Positions 52,647 to 64,000 of a DNA stretch of 64,000 nucleotides are shown in pieces. Numbering within the stretch: the first letter of the stretch is position 1; each line of letters starts with the position of its first letter. The DNA lies in assembly GCF_004799035.1 (NCBI RefSeq), contig NZ_MWIO01000025.1:1-64000 (forward strand). Reading direction: 5' to 3'. Source of the DNA: Rhodanobacter lindaniclasticus (GTDB lineage Bacteria; Pseudomonadota; Gammaproteobacteria; Xanthomonadales; Rhodanobacteraceae). The translations under genes were made by a program, and so were the position numbers. The notes under the pieces are model-generated. The model searched no databases. It was given only the letters and a program-made list of their open reading frames with translations, and had not been told where the DNA came from.

Positions 52647-54086
<1,440 letters not shown>

Positions 54087-54116
54087 GCCGCTGGCGGATC
54101 ATCCATCGGCTGCAGC

Positions 54117-54142
54117 AGAACGGGCGCCAAGGCGCCCGTTCT
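54117..54142 (+). terminator. Terminator hairpin after ahcY
   Basis: 12-bp perfect stem AGAACGGGCGCC/GGCGCCCGTTCT with a 2-base loop, 31 bases after the ahcY stop. The downstream tract is short of U, so termination may be incomplete. Confidence 0.75.
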
Positions 54143-54249
54143 GCCATCGCCGGCTCACCACCGGGCAGCGCGCACCATGCGGCCTGCGCTGCGCCGGATC
54201 ATACTTTCGTACCGATCCAGCACGGACGAACCCGAGGGAGACGGCGTCG

Positions 54250-55170
54250 ATGTCGCCAAAGCAAAGCAGCGCCGACCGGCGATTGTTCAGCCAGCTCCGC
54301 AGCGAAATGGACCGGATGACCGCGTCCGAACGGGTGATCGCGAACTTCCTGCTCACCAACCGGCAGGCGGTGCCGTTCGAGACTGCCAACTCGCTGGCCG
54401 CCAAACTCGCCATCAGCGCCGCGACGGTAGGCCGATTCTGCCGTCGCCTCGGCTACCGGAATTTCCGCGAGCTGAAGGCAGCGTTCAAGTTCGACGTGGC
54501 CGTCGCGCCATGGCCGATCGGCGAAGGCCTGCGCTCGATGCTGCAGACCGGCGGCGGCGAGCCGGCGCTGCAACGCGACCTGGACCTGACCATCGCCGGC
54601 ATCATCGAGGTCTACCGCCGCGCGGAAACGCGTGAATGGCAGGATATGGTTGCTCTCCTGGCACACTGCTCGACATTGCACATCGTGGGATTCCAGACCG
54701 AGCGCGGGCTTGCGGCCCACTTCGCCAGTTTCCTGCAATACGTGCGCCCGGGGGTGCGGGTGGCCGACCTGGCTACCGGAAGCTTCTCGGAGGTGCTGCT
54801 CGACGGCACCGGCAAGGATTGCGTCGTGATCGTGGAGACGCGTCGCTACTCGCGCCAGGCACAACTGCTCGCCCGTCATTGCCGGCAACGCGGGCTGCCG
54901 CTGGTGATGATCACCGACAAATACTGCCACTGGGCCAGCGAATACACGCCGCACATCCTGGCATTGCCGACGGAAAGCGGGATCTTCTGGGGCACCACCG
55001 TTCCGATCCACGCGGCGCTGGCGCTGCTGGTCAACGGCGTGGTTCTCGCACTCGGCGACCGCGTGGAGCAGCGCCTCGCCCACGTCTCCGACCTCTACCA
55101 GGAATTCGTCGGCCATGTCGGGAAACCCGCGCGCGGGCCGCGCAAGAAGGGTGGCGACATCGAGCCTTGA
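54250..55170 (+). CDS. RpiR-family transcriptional regulator (HTH + SIS domain)
   Basis: 306 residues. N-terminal HTH_6 domain: ASERVIANFLLTNRQAVPFE and LAISAATVGRFCRRLGYRNF. C-terminal SIS domain (about 125-270) beginning LLAHCSTLHIVGFQTERGLA, which in this family binds a sugar phosphate or related effector. The SIS core is atypical (AHFASFLQY, TRRYSRQAQLLARHC). It stands at the head of the D-amino-acid island and is convergent with the APC permease, so it is the likely local regulator. Effector unknown. Confidence 0.88.
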   Translation: MSPKQSSADRRLFSQLRSEMDRMTASERVIANFLLTNRQAVPFETANSLAAKLAISAATVGRFCRRLGYRNFRELKAAFKFDVAVAPWPIGEGLRSMLQTGGGEPALQRDLDLTIAGIIEVYRRAETREWQDMVALLAHCSTLHIVGFQTERGLAAHFASFLQYVRPGVRVADLATGSFSEVLLDGTGKDCVVIVETRRYSRQAQLLARHCRQRGLPLVMITDKYCHWASEYTPHILALPTESGIFWGTTVPIHAALALLVNGVVLALGDRVEQRLAHVSDLYQEFVGHVGKPARGPRKKGGDIEP

Positions 55171-55233
55171 GCATGCAGCGCACCGTCGGGCCGAGGCCCG
55201 GCGCTTGTGCGGAACCAGGATCGCCGCTCCCGT

Positions 55234-56694
55234 TCAGCGCGAGCGCACGTAGACCACGTAGATGACCAGGCCGGCCGCGAAGTAGCCGCCGACGATCGCC
55301 AGCGGCAGCACGTCGCCGCGCGTTGCGCGCAGCACCATGTCGATCAGCAGCGGCAAGCCCATCATCGCGGCGAAGGCGATGCCGAGCGCCGGAATGATGC
55401 CGATCCACCAGCCACGCACGCGGATGCCGCCCAGCGGCACGCGGAACGAGCGCGGACGATCGGGCTCGACCACGCGCAGGCGCATGACCGCCGCACAAAC
55501 GATCGCGAACGCGACCGCCGTGCCGAGGCTGATCAGGTCGCCGAGCAGGCTGATCGGCAGGCACGCCGCGAGCAACGCCATGGCCACGCCGGTATAGATG
55601 GTGCCGACCCGCGGCGTGCGCGTCCTGCCGTCGATCCGGGCGAACACCGGCGGCAGCATGCGATCGCGCGCCATCGCGTAGAAGATGCGGGTCTGACCGT
55701 AGATTGACGTCAGCAGCACCGAAAGCAGGCCGATCACCGCAGCGGACTTGACCGCGATGCCGAACATCGGCAGCTGCATCGCGTCGACGGCGACGGCAAT
55801 CGGGTCGGCGACGCCGAGCCGGGCGTAGGGCACGATGCCGGTCATCACCGCGGCGACGGCCATGTACAGCACGGTGCAGACCGCCAGCGTCATGAAGATG
55901 CCGATCGGCAGGTCGCGCTGGGGGTTACGCGCCTCGGCCGCGCTCGTGGACACGGTCTCGAAGCCGACGTAGGCGAAGAAGATCGCCGAGGCGCCGCGCA
56001 GCACGCCGGGCCAGCCGAACTCGAAATCGCCCCGCGCCGGCGGCACGAACGGCGTGAGGTTGGCCGGGTCGATGAAGGCAATGCCGACCAGCACGAAGGC
56101 GACCAGCGCAGCAATCTTGAGCAGCACGACGGCCGTGTTGAACGCGAACGACTGCGTCACCCCGCGCAACAGGACAGCCGTCACCACCAGGATCGCGCCG
56201 GCGGCGACGAGGTTGATGCCGCCGCCGAACTGCAGGCGGTTGCTGCCTCCGTCGGTGCGGAAGTCGAGCATCGGCGTGGTGATCGACGCCGGCAGGTGCA
56301 GACCGAACTGGTCGAGCAACGCCACCGCGTAGCCGGCGAAGCCGACCGCGACGGTCGCCGCGGCAATGCCGTACTCGAGCAGCAGCAGCCAGCCGGCGCA
56401 CCACGCGGTGAAGCGGCCGAACGTGAGCAACGCATACGAATAGCTCGAACCGGACAGCGGCATCGTGCCGGCAAGCTCGGCATAGCAGAACGCGGTGAAG
56501 CCGCAGGCGATCGCCGCCACCACGAACGACAGCACCACCGCCGGCCCGGCATGGGTCGCCGCCGCGGTGCCGGTCATGACGAAGATGCCGGCGCCGATGA
56601 CGCAGCCGACACCGATCATCGTCAACTGGAGCGGACCGAGCGTGCGCGCCAGCTCCGGTTCGTCGCCATCCGCTGTTTGCAATTTTTCTTTCAT
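55234..56694 (-). CDS. APC-superfamily amino acid permease
   Basis: 486-residue inner-membrane transporter with about 12 segments. Helix 1 has the substrate-binding break GVGCVIGAGIFVMTG, followed by VAAIACGFTAFCYAELAG and AYVGFETVSTSAAEARNP, hallmarks of the cationic-amino-acid/polyamine branch (YhdG/CAT-like). It would bring amino acids or short acyl-amino acids into the cytosol. The ATG at 56694 is 50 bases from the divergent epimerase gene, so both probably share a control region with an AT-rich core near 56700-56716. Confidence 0.9.
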   Translation of the reverse strand: MKEKLQTADGDEPELARTLGPLQLTMIGVGCVIGAGIFVMTGTAAATHAGPAVVLSFVVAAIACGFTAFCYAELAGTMPLSGSSYSYALLTFGRFTAWCAGWLLLLEYGIAAATVAVGFAGYAVALLDQFGLHLPASITTPMLDFRTDGGSNRLQFGGGINLVAAGAILVVTAVLLRGVTQSFAFNTAVVLLKIAALVAFVLVGIAFIDPANLTPFVPPARGDFEFGWPGVLRGASAIFFAYVGFETVSTSAAEARNPQRDLPIGIFMTLAVCTVLYMAVAAVMTGIVPYARLGVADPIAVAVDAMQLPMFGIAVKSAAVIGLLSVLLTSIYGQTRIFYAMARDRMLPPVFARIDGRTRTPRVGTIYTGVAMALLAACLPISLLGDLISLGTAVAFAIVCAAVMRLRVVEPDRPRSFRVPLGGIRVRGWWIGIIPALGIAFAAMMGLPLLIDMVLRATRGDVLPLAIVGGYFAAGLVIYVVYVRSR

Positions 56695-56744
56695 GGAAGT
56701 TACTATGATATAAATTGTGCATCCACGTCCAGAGGCCGGCTTGC

Positions 56745-57734
56745 ATGCAGACCGAAGTTCGCCACGAACGCTGGGATCTCGCCGCGCCATTCGTCATCGC
56801 GCACGAGACCTACCTGCATGCCGACGTCATCGTGGCAACGCTGTCGTGCGATGGCGCCGTCGGCCGCGGCGAATGCACGCCCACGGCGTTCTACGGCGAG
56901 AGCGTGGACGGCGTGATGAAGACCGTGCGCGAACTGCTCGTCCGCCTCGCCCGCGGCGAGTCCTGGGACCGCATCCACGATCGCGTGCCGGCCGGCGCCG
57001 CGCGCAACGCGGTCGACTGTGCGTTCTGGGATCTGCGCGCGAAACTGGCGAAGCGGCGTGTCTGGGAACTGGCCGGAATCCCCGCCCCGGCCCAGGTGCG
57101 CACCGCGCAGACCATCAGCGTGGGCGAGGCGGCGCAGCAGGCGGACAAGGCGCGCGCGATCGTTGCCACCGACGGCGACCGCGCCCTGATCAAGCTGAAA
57201 CTCGATGTGCACGACGTCGTCGCCCGCGTCGCGGCCGTGCGCGACGCCGCTCCGGCCGCGACCCTGATCATCGACGCGAATGAATCCTGGGACCCGGCGC
57301 TGCTCGACGGCGTCATGCCGGCGCTGCAGGCCGCGCGTGTCGCGATGGTCGAGCAGCCGCTGCCCGTGGGCAAGGACGACGCGCTGGCGCGGATCAAGCG
57401 CCGCGTGCCGGTCTGCGCCGACGAGTCGGCCCACGTCGGCGCCGACCTCGACGCGCTGTGCGGCCGCTACGACCTGGTCAACGTGAAGCTGGACAAGACC
57501 GGTGGCCTGACCGAGGCGCTGCGCATGACTGCCCGCGCGCGCCAGCTCGGCTTCGGCTTGATGGTGGGCTGCATGGAGGGGACGTCGCTCGGCATGGCGC
57601 CGGCCACGCTCGTCGCCGGTACCGCACGCTTTGTCGACCTCGATGGCCCGCTGCTCATCGGCCGCGACCGCGACCCGGGCCTGCACTACCAGCGTGGCCT
57701 CGTCTCGCCGCCCAGCGCGGCGCTGTGGGGTTGA
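56745..57734 (+). CDS. Enolase-superfamily epimerase/racemase (dipeptide epimerase or DgcA-like)
   Basis: 329 residues of the muconate-lactonising subgroup. Catalytic layout is complete: LIKLKLD (Lys-x-Lys base), metal ligands Asp in LIIDANESW, Glu in MVEQPLPVG and Asp in VCADESAH, and the second base Lys in VNVKLDKTGG. These enzymes epimerise Ala-Glu-type dipeptides; a close branch (DgcA) racemises N-acetyl-D-glutamate after DgcN. The neighbouring DUF1611 gene (59280) favours the latter. Start at 56745 chosen over a TTG upstream. Divergent from the permease. Confidence 0.85.
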   Translation: MQTEVRHERWDLAAPFVIAHETYLHADVIVATLSCDGAVGRGECTPTAFYGESVDGVMKTVRELLVRLARGESWDRIHDRVPAGAARNAVDCAFWDLRAKLAKRRVWELAGIPAPAQVRTAQTISVGEAAQQADKARAIVATDGDRALIKLKLDVHDVVARVAAVRDAAPAATLIIDANESWDPALLDGVMPALQAARVAMVEQPLPVGKDDALARIKRRVPVCADESAHVGADLDALCGRYDLVNVKLDKTGGLTEALRMTARARQLGFGLMVGCMEGTSLGMAPATLVAGTARFVDLDGPLLIGRDRDPGLHYQRGLVSPPSAALWG

Positions 57735-57763
57735 GCCGCATGTTTTCCAGGAGAACCGATTCC

Positions 57764-59278
57764 ATGATGAGCCGAACGCTGGTGTCACTGCTGCTGATCG
57801 CGCCGCTGGTCGTGTTGCCAGCCGGCCATGCAGCAGCGGCCGACTTCATCGTGCGCCATGCCGTTGTCGTCGACGGCACCGGCGCCGTGGCCCAGCACGT
57901 CGACGTGCGGGTCGCCGATGGACGCATCACCGCCATCGGCGAGCTCGCACCGCAGCGCGACGAACAGGTGGTCGACGCTCACGGGCTGGTGCTCGCGCCG
58001 GGGTTCATCGACACGCACAGCCACCACGATCGCGGCCTCGACAGCCAGCTCGACGCGCTGCCGGTGACCAGCCAGGGCGTCACCACGATCGTCATCGGCC
58101 AGGACGGCTTCTCGCAGGAGCCGATCGCCGACCTGTTCCGCCGCTACGAAGCCACGCCGGCGGCGATCAACATCGCCTCGTACGCGGGCCACAACTCGCT
58201 GCGCGAGGAGGTGATGGGCGCCGACGCCAGCCACGCGGCGACGCCGGCGCAGGTGCAGGCGATGCGCCAGCTGCTCGCCGCCGACATGAAGGCCGGCGCG
58301 CTCGGCCTGTCGACCGGCCTCGAATACGACTCGGGCCTCTACTCCACGCGCGCCGAGGTGCTCGCGCTCGCCGACGCCGTCGCGCCCTACGGCGGCCGCT
58401 ACATCAGCCACATGCGCAGCGAGGATCGCAAGGTCTGGGACGCGCTCGACGAACTGCTGACGATCGGCCGCGAGGCGAAGATCCCGGTGCAGGTCAGCCA
58501 CGCCAAGCTGGCGATGACCGACTGGTGGGGCCAGGCCGACCGCTTCCTGGGCATGCTCGACAAGGCGCGCGCCGAGGGCGTCGACGCGACGCTCGACGTC
58601 TATCCCTACGACAGCTGGCACAGCGAGTTGATCGTGCTGTGGCCCAAGCGCGATTTCGGGAACCGCGCGACCGCCGAATTCGTGCTCAAGCACCTCTCCC
58701 CGGCCGACGGCCTGCGCCTGTCGCAGTTCAAACCCGAACCGGACCTGGTCGGCAAGAGCGTGGCCGATGTTGCGCGCCTGCGCGGCACCGACGACGCGGA
58801 TACGGTGATGGCCCTGATCCGCGAATCGGAGGCGGCCCACAGCACCGCGCAGGTCATCAGCCGCAGCATGGACGGGCGCGACATCGCGAAGTTCATCGCC
58901 TGGCCGCAGGCGAACATCTGTTCCGACGGCAACCTCGACGGCCTGCACCCGCGCGGCTACGGCACCTTCCCGCGCGTGCTGCGCATGTACGTGCGCGAGC
59001 AGAAGATGCTGACGCTCGAGCAGGCCGTGCACAAGATGACCGGACTGGCCGCGCAACACATGGGCTTGCGCGACCGCGGCCAGATCCGCGTCGGCGCAGC
59101 GGCCGACCTCGTCCTGTTCGATCCGCGCACGGTGGCCGACCGCGCCACCTACGAGAAGCCGCACGAGCTGTCGGTCGGCATCGCGCGGGTATGGGTCAAC
59201 GGCACCCTGGTCCTCGCCGACGGCAAGGCGACCGGCGCCCACCCGGGCCAGGTGCTGCGCCGCCAGGGAGCCCGCTGA
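57764..59278 (+). CDS. Exported D-aminoacylase-family amidohydrolase
   Basis: 504 residues with a Sec signal peptide (cleavage after AAAA, about 27), so a periplasmic enzyme, unusual for a family that is mostly cytosolic. Motifs: GFIDTHSHHDRGL (HxH), TTIVIGQDGFS where classic D-aminoacylases have GxCG, GRYISHMRSED, VQVSHAKLA and ICSDGNLDGL. It should hydrolyse N-acyl-D-amino acids or D-residue dipeptides. The ATG pair at 57764/57767 follows GGAG; an upstream ATG (57740) is less likely. In a tight operon with dgcA-like and dgcN-like genes. Confidence 0.85.
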   Translation: MMSRTLVSLLLIAPLVVLPAGHAAAADFIVRHAVVVDGTGAVAQHVDVRVADGRITAIGELAPQRDEQVVDAHGLVLAPGFIDTHSHHDRGLDSQLDALPVTSQGVTTIVIGQDGFSQEPIADLFRRYEATPAAINIASYAGHNSLREEVMGADASHAATPAQVQAMRQLLAADMKAGALGLSTGLEYDSGLYSTRAEVLALADAVAPYGGRYISHMRSEDRKVWDALDELLTIGREAKIPVQVSHAKLAMTDWWGQADRFLGMLDKARAEGVDATLDVYPYDSWHSELIVLWPKRDFGNRATAEFVLKHLSPADGLRLSQFKPEPDLVGKSVADVARLRGTDDADTVMALIRESEAAHSTAQVISRSMDGRDIAKFIAWPQANICSDGNLDGLHPRGYGTFPRVLRMYVREQKMLTLEQAVHKMTGLAAQHMGLRDRGQIRVGAAADLVLFDPRTVADRATYEKPHELSVGIARVWVNGTLVLADGKATGAHPGQVLRRQGAR

Positions 59279-59279
59279 C

Positions 59280-60332
59280 ATGCAGATCGCCGCCCCGTAC
59301 CTGCTCTTCCTCGGCAACACCCCGCACCGCCTCGACGCCAAGACGGCCAGCGGCATTCTCGACTGGCGCCCGGAACTGTGCGCCGGGCAATGCCGGCTCG
59401 ACGCCGACACGGTCGACCTCGGCCTGCCCGACATGACGCCGGAGGCCGCCGCCGCCGCCGGCATGCGCACGCTGGTGATCGGCGTGGCCACCTTCGGCGG
59501 TGCGCTCGACGAGGCGTGGATCGACACCCTGCTGGCCGCGATCCACGCCGGCCTCGACATCGCCAGCGGCATGCATGCGCGCCTCGGCGAGAATCCGCGG
59601 ATCGCCGCGGCCGCGCGCCAGGCCGGCGTGCGGCTGTTCGACGTGCGCCACGCCGACGCGCATTTCGACGTCGGCTCCGGCCGCAAGCGCAGCGGCCGCC
59701 GGATGCTGATGGTCGGCGTCGATTGCGCGGTCGGCAAGAAGTACGCCGCGCTGGCCATCCACCGCGCCTTCGTGCGACGCGGCATGGCCGCCGATTTCCG
59801 CGCGACCGGGCAAACCGGCATCCTCATCGCCGGCGCCGGCATCGCGATCGACGCGGTCGTCGCCGATTTCGCCGCCGGCGCGGCCGAAGCGCTGTCGCCC
59901 GACAACGAGCCCGGGCACTGGGACGTGATCGAAGGCCAGGGCTCGCTGTTCCACCCGGCCTATGCCGGCGTCAGCCTTGCCCTGCTGCACGGCTCGCAGC
60001 CGGACGCGCTCGTGCTCTGCCACGACCCGCACCGCACGCACATCGACGGTTACCCGGACTATCCGCTGCCGACGCTCGCCGCCTGCATCGCCGCCAACGA
60101 ACAGGCCGCGCGCCTGACCAACCCCGCCGCACGCTGCATCGCCGTCGCGCTCAACACGCACGGCATGAGCGAAAGCCAACGCGCGGACGCGTTCGCCCGC
60201 GCCTACGCGGAAACCGGCCTGGTCGTATTCGACCCGATCGCGACCGGTGCCGACGCGGTCGTCGACACGCTGCTCGCGGAAACGCGCGAGCTTGCGCAAG
60301 CCAGTCCACACACCCCGGGGGATCACCCATGA
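59280..60332 (+). CDS. DUF1611 protein (DgcN-like N-acetyltransferase)
   Basis: 350 residues. The N-terminal domain (PYLLFLGNTPHRLDAKTASG) precedes a P-loop-like domain with MVGVDCAVGKKYAAL, GQTGILIAGAGIAIDAVVAD and VIEGQGSLFHPAYAG. This is the DUF1611 family. A characterised member, DgcN, acetylates D-glutamate before racemisation by DgcA, and both homologues occur here side by side. A P-loop lysine pair (GKK) replaces the usual GKT/S. The start is 1 base after the amidohydrolase stop. Function by analogy. Confidence 0.8.
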   Translation: MQIAAPYLLFLGNTPHRLDAKTASGILDWRPELCAGQCRLDADTVDLGLPDMTPEAAAAAGMRTLVIGVATFGGALDEAWIDTLLAAIHAGLDIASGMHARLGENPRIAAAARQAGVRLFDVRHADAHFDVGSGRKRSGRRMLMVGVDCAVGKKYAALAIHRAFVRRGMAADFRATGQTGILIAGAGIAIDAVVADFAAGAAEALSPDNEPGHWDVIEGQGSLFHPAYAGVSLALLHGSQPDALVLCHDPHRTHIDGYPDYPLPTLAACIAANEQAARLTNPAARCIAVALNTHGMSESQRADAFARAYAETGLVVFDPIATGADAVVDTLLAETRELAQASPHTPGDHP

Positions 60333-60424
60333 AACGCAAGACTCTGGTCATGGCCGCCGTGCTGGCCCATCCCCATGGCGAAGCGCCTGCGAGGCTCGCG
60401 GGTCATTTCATCAGGTTGCGATAA
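60329..60424 (+). CDS. Truncated ORF (signal-peptide-like start, 31 codons)
   Basis: An ATG overlapping the dgcN-like stop (ATGA) opens 31 codons: MKRKTLVMAAVLAHPHGEAP and on to a TAA. The first 13 residues look like a signal-peptide start (basic, then hydrophobic), but the sequence breaks off into HPHGEAPARLAGH. Position and coupling suggest the 5' remnant of an exported enzyme or receptor lost by deletion. It could also be a real tiny protein; no family is recognised. Confidence 0.35.
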   Translation: MKRKTLVMAAVLAHPHGEAPARLAGHFIRLR

Positions 60425-60474
60425 GGCTCGGCAGGTTTGGTTGCTCCGTTACGCTCACGGGGAGGTCGCAGGTC

Positions 60475-63015
60475 ATGTCCAAAGCTCATTTCAAGTGTGG
60501 TGGCAAGGCGCCACGGGCGATTTTGGCGCGCTTGCCGCTCGCGGCGGCGATCAGTCTTGCCGTGGCCGCACCAGCGCTCGCTCAGGATGTTGCCGAGCAG
60601 CCCGCATCGGCCGCGACGACCTCCGCGACAGCGCAAAAGGCCAAGACCCTGGGTACGGTCACGGTGACCGCGCAGAGGCGCACCGAGGATCTGCAGAAGG
60701 TGCCGATCAGCATCAACGTGCTGGCACAGGATCAACTTGAGGCCCTGCACGTCCAGAACTTCAAGGACTACGTGAAATATCTGCCCAGCGTGTCCTTCCA
60801 GGACAACGGCGGCGGCAATGGCGCGCAAGGCTTTGCCATCATCTACATGCGCGGTGTCAGCAGCGGCAGCGGCGGGGACTATACCGGGTCGCGGCCGAGC
60901 GTCGGCGTGTACCTCGACAACCAGCCGATCACCACGATCCAGGGGCCGGTAGACATCCACATGTACGACATCGCCCGCATCGAGGTGCTGGCAGGACCCC
61001 AGGGTACGTTGTATGGCGCCAGCGCCGAAGCCGGCGCGTTGCGCATCATCACCAACCAGCCCGACCCCGGCGCCTTCGCGGCAAACTACGCGCTCGGCGT
61101 CGACAAGGTTGCACACGGTGGCATCGGCTCCACCGCCGAGGGCATGGTCAATATCCCGCTCGGCAAGGGCGCCGCGATTCGCCTCGTGGGTTGGCGCGAA
61201 CACGACGCGGGCTACATCGACAACAAGGCCGGCACGCGTACCTACCCGTCTTCCGGCATTACCATCAGCAACGCCGACGACTGCACCCCTGGCGTGCTGC
61301 TGCAATGCCACGGACACGCCCGCAAGCACTACAACGACGCCGACACCCAGGGCGCACGCGCCGCGCTGAAAGTGGACCTCGACGACAGCTGGTCGATCAG
61401 CCCGACACTGATGGGGCAACAGACGATCTCCCACGGTTCGTCTTCCAGCGACCCGAGCGTGGGCGATCTCGCCGTCACGCATTTCTTTCCCGAGCGCAAC
61501 AACGATCGCTGGTGGCAGGGCGCGTTGACCGTGCAAGGCAAGCTCGGCAATTTCGATCTGACCTATGCCTATGCGCATCTCAAGCGCAACCAGGAGCAGG
61601 AGTCCGACTACACGGACTACTCATTCTGGTACGACACGCTGAACGGCTCCGGTGTCTATTTTTATGACAACGGCGGAAGCCTGATCGATCCGTCGCAACA
61701 TCCATTTTTCCGCGATCACTACACCGACAACAGCCACGAACTGCGCCTTGTCTCGCCCAGCGACGATCGCCTGCGCCTGGTCGCCGGCGCGTTCTGGCAG
61801 AAGCTGAAACACGATATCCAGTACCAGTACAAGATCAGCGGCTTGGCCGATTCGCTGACGGTTACCGGCTGGCCGGACACCCTCTATCTGAGCCGGCAGA
61901 TCCGTTACGATCGTGACCAGTCGGTGTACGGCGAACTTTCCTGGGACTTCATCCCCGACGTCCTCACCGGCACGATCGGCGAGCGCTATTATCGCGACAG
62001 CGGCAGCTTTTACGGCTTTTTCGGTTTCAGCGAGGGCTATTTTCCCGGCTCCAGTTACGGCGAGGCCGGCTGCATCTCGCCCGAACCATTCGAGGGCGCG
62101 CCCTGTCTGGACTTCGACAAGCGGGTAAAGCAAAGCGGATCGCTCAACAAGGTCAACCTGACCTGGCATGTCACGCCCCGTGCCATGGCCTATTTCACCC
62201 GATCCGAGGGCTATCGCCCGGGTGGCATCAATCGCAACGCATCGCTGCCGCCCTATCAGGCGGATTTCCTGACCAACGTCGAACTCGGCTGGAAAACCTC
62301 ATGGTTCGACCATCGGCTGACCTTCAACGGGGCCGTGTTCCGCGAGACCTGGAACAATTTCCAGTTCGACATCACCGGCCCGAACGGCATTGCCGAAATT
62401 CTCAACGCCAATTCGGCCCGCATCAACGGACTGGAGTCGCAACTGAACTGGCAGGCGACCTACAACCTGCAACTGAGCGCCGGCATCGCCGTGTATGACG
62501 CCAAGTTGACCGCCAACTACTGCGGATTCACCGACAGCAACAACCACCCTGTCACCGACTGTCCGGCCGGCTCGATCAATACACAAACCGGCGACACGAT
62601 GGACGGGCCGCTGGCACCCACGGGCACCCGCCTGCCCATCACGCCACGGTTCAAGGGCAACCTCATCGCGCGTTACACCTTTGATGTCGGCAGCAAGAGT
62701 GGCTTCGTCCAGGGTGCATTGACGCATGTGGGGAACCGCACGACGAGCCTGCTCCTGCTCGATCGCAGCCTCTACGGCGGGCTGCCTGCCTACAACTCGG
62801 CCGACCTCTCCGCCGGTCTCCAGGGGGACAGCTGGTCGGTGAGTGTCTACATCGACAACGCGTTCGACAAGCGCGCCGCGCTGTACAAGTTCTCCGAGTG
62901 TGCGGTAGCGGTTTGTGGTGCGCACGGCGTGGTGCCGGAATACCCGAATGGACAGGTGTACACGGGTTTCAGCCAGCCGCGCACGTTCGGCATCAGCTTC
63001 AAGCAGGATTTCTAG
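60475..63015 (+). CDS. TonB-dependent outer-membrane receptor of the D-amino-acid island
   Basis: 846 residues. Signal peptide ends ALAQ (about 36). TonB-box-like TVTVTAQRR, plug domain (PISINVLAQDQLEAL, YLDNQPITTIQGPVD, IARIEVLAGPQGTLYGAS), then a 22-strand barrel ending in SFKQDF. The plug is of the IroE/OAR-like Xanthomonadales-Sphingomonad group used for organic nutrients, not the siderophore group. It sits between two exported deacylases, so it probably imports their substrate. A strong GGGGAGG precedes the ATG. No Fur box seen. Confidence 0.9.
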   Translation: MSKAHFKCGGKAPRAILARLPLAAAISLAVAAPALAQDVAEQPASAATTSATAQKAKTLGTVTVTAQRRTEDLQKVPISINVLAQDQLEALHVQNFKDYVKYLPSVSFQDNGGGNGAQGFAIIYMRGVSSGSGGDYTGSRPSVGVYLDNQPITTIQGPVDIHMYDIARIEVLAGPQGTLYGASAEAGALRIITNQPDPGAFAANYALGVDKVAHGGIGSTAEGMVNIPLGKGAAIRLVGWREHDAGYIDNKAGTRTYPSSGITISNADDCTPGVLLQCHGHARKHYNDADTQGARAALKVDLDDSWSISPTLMGQQTISHGSSSSDPSVGDLAVTHFFPERNNDRWWQGALTVQGKLGNFDLTYAYAHLKRNQEQESDYTDYSFWYDTLNGSGVYFYDNGGSLIDPSQHPFFRDHYTDNSHELRLVSPSDDRLRLVAGAFWQKLKHDIQYQYKISGLADSLTVTGWPDTLYLSRQIRYDRDQSVYGELSWDFIPDVLTGTIGERYYRDSGSFYGFFGFSEGYFPGSSYGEAGCISPEPFEGAPCLDFDKRVKQSGSLNKVNLTWHVTPRAMAYFTRSEGYRPGGINRNASLPPYQADFLTNVELGWKTSWFDHRLTFNGAVFRETWNNFQFDITGPNGIAEILNANSARINGLESQLNWQATYNLQLSAGIAVYDAKLTANYCGFTDSNNHPVTDCPAGSINTQTGDTMDGPLAPTGTRLPITPRFKGNLIARYTFDVGSKSGFVQGALTHVGNRTTSLLLLDRSLYGGLPAYNSADLSAGLQGDSWSVSVYIDNAFDKRAALYKFSECAVAVCGAHGVVPEYPNGQVYTGFSQPRTFGISFKQDF

Positions 63016-63131
63016 TCGAGCGGTCGATTGCCGCACCGGCTGAAAGCCCTGGCGTCAGCCTGCGCTTTTCGTTGCCGCTTGATGGCGAGCAACGTCTCGC
63101 CGACAGATGATCATTTGAGGGGGAGTGGTTC

Positions 63132-64000
63132 ATGCCCATCTTCATTCGCACCGCCTGCATGTCGATCGTCGCGGCCATCGGGCTGTTGACGGCGACGCCA
63201 TCTCCGGCTGCTGGCGTCGAGTACGACACCATCATCCGCAACGGTCACATCATCGACGGTACGGGTTCGCCCTGGTACGCGGCCGACATCGCCGTGAAGG
63301 ATGGTCGCATCGCCGCGATCGGCGACCTCGCCGACGCGCATGCCAGGCAGGTGATCGACGCCCACGGTCTGGTTGTGGCGCCGGGATTCATTGACATGCT
63401 TGGTCAATCAGAAATCACCCTGCTGGTCGATCCGCATGTGCCGTCGAAGATCTTCCAGGGCATCACCACCGAGATCACCGGAGAAGGCGAATCGGTGGCG
63501 CCGCTCGACGCCGAGATGATCAAGCAACGCCAGGCGGCCTACGCGCACTATCGGATAACGCCGGACTGGCGCACGTTCGAGCAATATTTCACGCGCCTGC
63601 AAAAGCAAGGCATGGGCATCAACGTAGGCACGTACGTGGGCGCCACTTCAGTGCGCGAGATGGTCATTGGCTACAAGAATCGCGCACCCACGCCGGACGA
63701 GCTGAAACAGATGCAGATGCTGGTAGCGGACGCGATGAAGCAGGGTGCGCTGGGGCTGTCCACGGCGCTGGAGTACACCCCGGCGCCTTACGCCGGAACC
63801 GACGAGTTGATCGCCCTGGCGAAGGTTGCCGCACGCCATGGCGGCATCTACGCGACCCACATGCGCAACGAGGGCGATGCAGAGATGGCCGCGCTGGACG
63901 AAACCTTCCGGATCGGCCGCGAGGCGGATATTCCGGTGGAGATTTTCCATCTCAAGGCCACGGGCAATCTCAAGGGCAAGATGGCACAGGTGATCGCGCG
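63132..64000 (+). CDS. Second exported D-aminoacylase-family protein (cut by window end)
   Basis: First 289 codons of a protein with a signal peptide (cleavage after PAA, about 27). Related to the enzyme at 57764 (EYDTIIRNGHIIDGTG, GALGLSTALEYTP, YATHMRNEGD, VEIFHLKATG). The HxH motif is lost: GFIDMLGQSE replaces GFIDTHSHHD, and the GxCG position reads TGEGESVAP. The two later histidines are kept. So it may be mononuclear, have a different metal, or be a dipeptidase variant. GGGGGAG precedes the ATG. Confidence 0.85.
   Translation, partial: MPIFIRTACMSIVAAIGLLTATPSPAAGVEYDTIIRNGHIIDGTGSPWYAADIAVKDGRIAAIGDLADAHARQVIDAHGLVVAPGFIDMLGQSEITLLVDPHVPSKIFQGITTEITGEGESVAPLDAEMIKQRQAAYAHYRITPDWRTFEQYFTRLQKQGMGINVGTYVGATSVREMVIGYKNRAPTPDELKQMQMLVADAMKQGALGLSTALEYTPAPYAGTDELIALAKVAARHGGIYATHMRNEGDAEMAALDETFRIGREADIPVEIFHLKATGNLKGKMAQVIA

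Follow-up and report, generated by a model that had tools for sequence, protein, structure and literature searches.

A D-glutamate (D-Glu) pathway built on DgcN and DgcA, with the regulator DgcR, was reportedly described by Yu et al. in ISME J in 2023, a study that PMC12363236 cites. The parts of three further papers covered here name it as the likely main D-Glu route in Shewanella WP2 (PMC10845958), survey the distribution of dgcN (PMC12363236) and record EC 2.3.1.312 and 5.1.1.25 in a Rhodobacteraceae strain growing on D-Glu and peptidoglycan (PMC11747546); how D-Glu reaches DgcN and DgcA is not described in those parts. We analysed a gene island at the end of a 64,000-nucleotide stretch of Rhodanobacter lindaniclasticus DNA (the window, positions 1-64000 of a 158.6 kb contig, NZ_MWIO01000025.1, labelled C28). 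As in the Vibrio fortis locus, whose order is LysR-dgcN-dgcA, a DUF1611 acetyltransferase gene lies near an enolase-superfamily racemase gene. The island differs in its gene order, DgcA-AH1-DgcN (AH1 being amidohydrolase 1), in its linked amidohydrolases, TonB-dependent receptor (TBDR) and APC permease, and in its regulator: the family scan of the island met no LysR-type regulator like that of the published dgc locus and found an RpiR type instead.

We read the island as a D-Glu salvage locus in which exported hydrolases supply the known DgcN-DgcA pathway, and give this reading a probability of roughly 60%. Gene content, gene order, conservation, the predicted fold and active-site residues of AH1, and repeated linkage are its directly seen basis. 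The novelty probably lies in joining a known inner pathway to an unusual supply module; a limited literature search turned up no publication on exported amidohydrolases clustered with DgcN-DgcA. The island has the following features.

54250..55170, plus strand: RpiR-type regulator (Pfam HTH_6, 51.9 bits; SIS, 36.5 bits), also found in loci L036-L040 and L058-L064
55234..56694, minus strand: APC amino-acid permease (AA_permease_2, 189.2 bits), start from the codon model
56695..56744, no strand: divergent control region of 50 bases between the APC and DgcA-like genes, from the gene ends
56745..57734, plus strand: DgcA-like putative N-acetyl-D-Glu racemase or dipeptide epimerase, enolase superfamily (MR_MLE_N/C; NF042940, 425.6 bits; tree)
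57764..59278, plus strand: AH1 (Amidohydro_3), probably exported, predicted N-acyl-D-amino-acid deacylase fold with Asp replacing the Cys metal ligand
59280..60332, plus strand: DgcN-like putative D-Glu N-acetyltransferase (DUF1611, both N and C parts; NF041892, 474.8 bits; 7xrj, 325.5 bits)
60475..63015, plus strand: TBDR of a 'class C' type that recurs with DgcN elsewhere (Plug, 64.6 bits; relatives of 26-35% near DgcN)
63132..64000 and on to contig position 64832, plus strand: AH2, the island's other amidohydrolase, likewise probably exported, lacking both HxH motif and Cys ligand

Five genes (DgcA-like, AH1, DgcN-like, TBDR and AH2) share one orientation and are separated by 29, 1, 142 and 116 bases. 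The APC and DgcA-like genes are divergent with 50 bases between them, and the RpiR gene converges with the APC gene. DgcN and DgcA genes are 1.5 kb apart with AH1 in between. The preliminary description of this DNA reported seven intact genes of named families in one island; open frames and domain scans agree with it, and all seven are present, but the window ends inside AH2, after 289 of its 566 residues. The 4.06 Mb genome has about 13 Amidohydro_3 genes (15 matched stretches), two of them within 3 kb of the DUF1611 gene.

Because the five-gene core of RpiR, APC, DgcA, AH1 and DgcN is also kept in another genus, the grouping is more than chance. The core is together in 5 of 45 Rhodanobacter genomes, our own included, and in Rudaea-group loci (L036-L040, one genus; L058-L064, where L061 is Rudaea sp. 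3F27F6). Looser gene sets were found in a further genus of the same family and in two genomes from outside the family. AH1 matched at 85% or above in the other four island-bearing Rhodanobacter; a sixth Rhodanobacter genome has a 36% relative only. For the DgcN-like protein, identity is 95% with its counterpart in Rhodanobacter sp. 67-28 and 86% with the one in Rhodanobacter sp. Soil772. Among the Rudaea-group loci, L062 and L063 showed no APC, and in L060 and L061 RpiR is located elsewhere. Among 12 named loci examined, AH1 was not seen in L065 and L067, which are short contigs, or in L066 (Steroidobacteraceae), which has DgcN, APC, RpiR and DgcA.

DgcN itself is far from present in every genome. 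With the window protein as query (E <= 1e-30), it was found in 36 of 147 family genomes; NF041892 (E <= 1e-60) matched in 11 of 370 genomes of the class and in 82 of 397 of the phylum. DgcA lies within 7.5 kb of DgcN in 38/40 phylum, 10/11 class and 24/29 family loci. An amidohydrolase (AH), gamma-glutamyltransferase (GGT), M19 or S12 gene lies within the same distance in 27/29 family loci, a count favoured by construction because the hydrolase hidden Markov models (HMMs) were built from clusters in the family loci themselves, and in 2/11 class and 12/40 phylum loci. As none of these hydrolases is near DgcN in 9/11 class and 28/40 phylum loci, a DgcN-DgcA pair lacking them is the usual arrangement beyond the family. 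Control DNA of 214 kb, mostly one orthologous region from 16 genomes, had a single such hydrolase gene (0.07 per 16 kb). The 40 phylum loci, from 38 genomes, were chosen non-randomly from the 82 matching genomes to cover families. The linkage counts leave out L058-L062, L090 and L091, which repeat other loci; L063-L067, which are named contigs; L092, where DgcN was not found; and L141-L143, of which L142 and L143 overlap L122 and L124.

The predicted fold of AH1 is that of an N-acyl-D-amino-acid deacylase, and the residues D388, K248, Y188, Y280 and R397, corresponding to the catalytic Asp and the carboxylate-binding Lys/Tyr/Tyr/Arg, are invariant. Their roles were taken from PMC12017989, with R397 assigned by reading the HPR motif; another Arg column (R377eq in the alignment), distinct from R397, varies in AH1. 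Both AH1 and AH2 are probably exported, as judged by simple hydropathy from their signal-like N-termini.

Relatives of AH1 (E <= 1e-95, up to three candidates scored per genome) occur in 4 of 397 Pseudomonadota genomes: our own, G851, G824 and G671. All four carry DgcN, and the two genes are within 3 kb in three of them (our own, G851 and G824). The order is AH1-DgcN-RpiR-DgcA in G851 and DgcN-DgcA-AH1 in G824. The chance that all three genomes other than our own carry DgcN is about (81/396)^3 = 0.009. In a tree of 51 DgcA-type proteins made by a quick method, members from AH1 loci appear at several separate positions (Rhodanobacter/Rudaea; g17; L142; L143). Since they are scattered, the linkage of AH1 to DgcN/DgcA is, as judged from this tree, one that was made more than once.

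We infer all substrates, export, transport direction and regulation, and the chemistry of DgcN and DgcA is transferred from the published pathway. The TBDR would import a small D-Glu-containing peptide or an N-acyl-D-Glu compound. In the periplasm, AH1 would release the D-amino acid from its acyl or peptidyl group, and the APC permease would bring the free D-amino acid (D-Glu) inside. There DgcN would N-acetylate D-Glu and DgcA would invert N-acetyl-D-Glu to N-acetyl-L-Glu, which a housekeeping deacetylase or the arginine pathway may process further. RpiR would control the gene set by sensing an intermediate. The preliminary description went too far in calling this a complete path to an L-amino acid: the island holds no N-acetyl-L-Glu deacetylase, and the M20-type candidates (7 matches) are on other contigs.

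Several observations weigh against D-Glu salvage, and the family scores come first. The DgcN-like protein has both DUF1611 domains (DUF1611 244.6 bits, DUF1611_N 84.4 bits) and falls just below the NF041892 cut-off (474.8 bits vs 480). The DgcN-like proteins of L042, L142 and L143 score 464-470 bits, so that relatives of the RpiR/AH1 type sit slightly below 480. The DgcA-like protein passes NF042940 (425.6 bits, cut-off 400). So does E. coli YcjG (424.1 bits), which is an L-Ala-D/L-Glu epimerase, and the cut-off therefore does not separate the two activities; we rejected it as proof of DgcA identity, and N-acetyl-D-Glu is only the putative substrate. Automatic naming with this model may confuse N-acetyl-D-Glu racemases with L-Ala-D/L-Glu epimerases. 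The phylogeny of the epimerase, put forward in the preliminary description as a check, could be drawn, but the tree includes just one L-Ala-D/L-Glu epimerase, and score alone cannot decide.

These near-equal scores would also fit murein-peptide use, in which the enolase-superfamily enzyme would be an L-Ala-D/L-Glu epimerase, the exported enzymes would trim peptidoglycan peptides and DgcN would have another role. E. coli ycjG adjoins murein-peptide genes, and sister loci carry M19 and S12 enzymes and peptide symporters. The window protein, however, fails the NF011708 cut-off for L-Ala-D/L-Glu epimerases (305.3 bits vs 343), which YcjG passes with 677.2 bits, and the usual neighbour of such genes is DgcN, as counted above for the phylum and family loci. 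The contig also has a separate enolase-superfamily gene (C28:93615-94568, 161.9 bits to DgcA) beside another RpiR gene. We therefore consider murein-peptide use by the island unlikely. That separate gene belongs to a third cluster (C28:90494-94568) with an SDF symporter, a YkuD-domain protein and RpiR, which is possibly itself for murein-peptide use.

The active site of AH1 gives a second group of points against D-Glu salvage. Subtype V D-aminoacylases are defined by a Cys/His/His metal site (PMC12017989). In the sequence alignment AH1 does not have it: Asp114 stands in place of Cys in 15 of 15 AH1 rows, and His216 and His246 are kept. This raises the question of a fold working with another metal site. 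The substrate-site residues Ser291 and Leu370 of PpOngB are conserved, Ser strictly so (PMC12017989). In a loop whose alignment is unsure, AH1 has His or Gln in the Ser291 column, and the window AH1 lacks the Leu two residues past the catalytic Asp (Leu370). The D-Glu-specificity position, Arg295 of BbDam, falls in a loop of other length where the alignment is uncertain. AH1 rows retain a P-x-R/K motif, with its basic residue, close to this position, but phmmer and MAFFT place this motif differently, and we did not use it to assign D-Glu specificity.

The Amidohydro_3 score of AH2 is 25.4 bits for the window part (cut-off 29.7) and 72.3 bits for the full 566-residue protein, and in the alignment IDMLGQS and TGE-GES stand in place of HxH and Cys. 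Since AH1 has Asp for Cys and AH2 lacks both HxH and Cys, neither appears from its sequence to be a canonical D-aminoacylase. Of the two exported deacylases named in the preliminary description, the deacylase fold of AH1 is upheld as a prediction, and both depart from the canonical D-aminoacylase motifs. Compared with BbDam (3gip) and AfDam (1m7j), AH1 has Asp for the Cys ligand, a signal-like N-terminus and a longer specificity loop. The GlcNAc1A deacetylase PpOngB (9kb1, 9kb3, 9kb4; PMC12017989) differs in keeping Cys and in acting on an oxidised amino sugar.

The genomic setting of some AH1 relatives also speaks against D-Glu. In G671 the relative is on a different contig from DgcN. Two others, each of 52-54%, lie on a Novosphingobium EMRT-2 plasmid, where the gene abuts an alanine-racemase gene (L144:11926-14738) and hints at D-Ala, and in Gemmatirosa, in a stretch without DgcN whose enolase-superfamily gene scores 78 bits to the DgcA HMM. 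The alanine-racemase neighbour would suit a different N-acyl-D-amino acid or D-peptide as substrate (D-Ala, D-Asp, or D-Asn/Gln derivatives), with D-Glu at most one of several. So would the range of the deacylase fold, which spans hydrophobic D-amino acids, D-Glu and GlcNAc1A (PMC12017989), and the tie of the dgcN pathway to acidic D-amino acids and their amides in the part of PMC12363236 covered. In the window, DgcN and DgcA are the only linked racemisation enzymes, and the basic residue of the P-x-R/K motif is kept in AH1; we regard such a shift of substrate as quite improbable.

The last point concerns the mechanism of D-Glu salvage itself. If AH1 freed D-Glu from its acetyl form, adding the acetyl group again by DgcN would be wasteful. 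A peptidyl substrate would make more sense, as no acetyl group would be removed and then put back. BbDam also cleaves L-Met-D-Glu, and by analogy a peptide such as L-Ala-D-Glu is a possible AH1 substrate. Microcystin is a cyclic peptide that contains D-residues. The microcystin cluster mlrCADBEF has a dipeptidase and a D-aminoacylase (mlrE/mlrF), and the part of PMC6256522 covered makes no mention of DgcN.

The outer part of the island is less constant than its core. The window-type TBDR and AH2 are common to our own genome, 67-28, G166 and G147; Soil772 carries a different TBDR here and lacks AH2, and neither AH2 nor this TBDR type was seen in any Rudaea-group locus read. The window's TBDR type and an AH2-type gene recur close to DgcN/DgcA in L087, from another family, and in L096, from another genus. 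This favours a functional link, although the TBDR-AH2 pair is replaceable. The plug region alone of the TBDR matches pesticin, colicin I, haem and siderophore receptors, and no substrate was drawn from these solved relatives. In Rhodanobacter sp. 67-28, a metagenome-assembled genome, the TonB receptor is split into two reading frames (L056:11212-13703).

The island sits between SAHH (ahcY) and MTHFR (metF), names given from reading the sequences, in the five Rhodanobacter and in L058; in L062 it precedes SAHH. Here the flanks of the spot are window 54086-54250 and C28:64832-69367. Among 16 Rhodanobacter without AH1 (E <= 1e-40), the ahcY-metF interval is 211-362 bases in 5 and 0.9-4.7 kb in 8, and in 3 MTHFR was not found within the examined stretch. 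Because the interval varies in this way, the island looks like the cargo of a variable spot. TBDR-AH2 might then be a separate unit that merely occupies this spot beside the DgcN core, as the exchanges in Soil772 and the Rudaea group could suggest. Its recurrence beside DgcN/DgcA in L087 and L096 makes us doubt this, and we leave it some weight.

The preliminary description took the receptor and hydrolases as additions to DgcN/DgcA. The repeated linkage to hydrolases and TonB receptors agrees with it, but TBDR and AH2 are exchangeable, and a TonB receptor beside a D-aminoacylase gene, with N-acyl-D-amino acids as the proposed substrate, was reported in 2012 for the gammaproteobacterium NOR5-3 (PMC3400609, whose part covered does not mention DgcN/DgcA). 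RpiR control, also presented as new, is not peculiar to this island: RpiR genes lie near DgcN/DgcA in L055, L066 and L142 as well.

Sister loci carry other outer parts. A second locus on the same contig, of the canonical kind, (C28:82139-87167, L005) has LysR (C28:82139-83041; HTH_1 63.1 bits, LysR_substrate 105.7 bits), DgcN (C28:83290, 518.3 bits), DgcA (434.7 bits) and GGT, the first three as in the published pathway, with a TonB receptor and APC nearby. Other family loci have cupin-HTH, an M19 dipeptidase, a TonB receptor, DgcN, S12 hydrolases, DgcA and a POT symporter. In Novosphingobium EMRT-2 the annotation shows a similar set: an XRE regulator, a serine hydrolase, a dipeptide epimerase, a peptide MFS transporter, a TonB receptor and DUF1611. 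We tentatively suggest that DgcN-DgcA could be a common cytoplasmic intake for exchangeable outer modules (the Asp-ligand amidohydrolase, GGT, or M19 with S12), each with its own TonB receptor and regulator; AH1 would then define a family of exported enzymes that release D-Glu and have a new metal site. If so, these would be D-Glu utilisation loci, organised on a logic like that of polysaccharide utilisation loci. Peptidoglycan and some D-residue peptides lock D-Glu away, and the receptors, exported hydrolases and permeases of the island and its sister loci are candidates for its supply in soil bacteria. An M81 metallopeptidase gene was also seen at the edge of a DgcN cluster in the Rudaea group (L049:3-914).

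The best NCBIfam model for the APC permease is BcaP, whose score is too low to assign a substrate (435.9 bits, cut-off 690). SapR was dropped as a clue to the role of RpiR (150 bits vs a cut-off of 500; the literature match is a Burkholderia surface-protein regulator). A palindrome like TTATGNCATAA, found in some orthologues, was set aside as an RpiR operator: in the window its copy carries 2 mismatches, and it is no more frequent than chance predicts (2 found, 2.5 expected). Searches for sigma-70 promoters (0 found vs 1.2 expected) and terminators (5 found vs 5.0 expected, at chance) gave no signal.

A trio of genes adjoins the island at C28:65283-69290, encoding a GNAT-like protein (Acetyltransf_6), a thiamine-pyrophosphate enzyme and an ATP-grasp-like protein (below cut-off). 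It also occurs in 67-28 and, at the same spot without the island, in G093, and looks like a small biosynthetic cargo.

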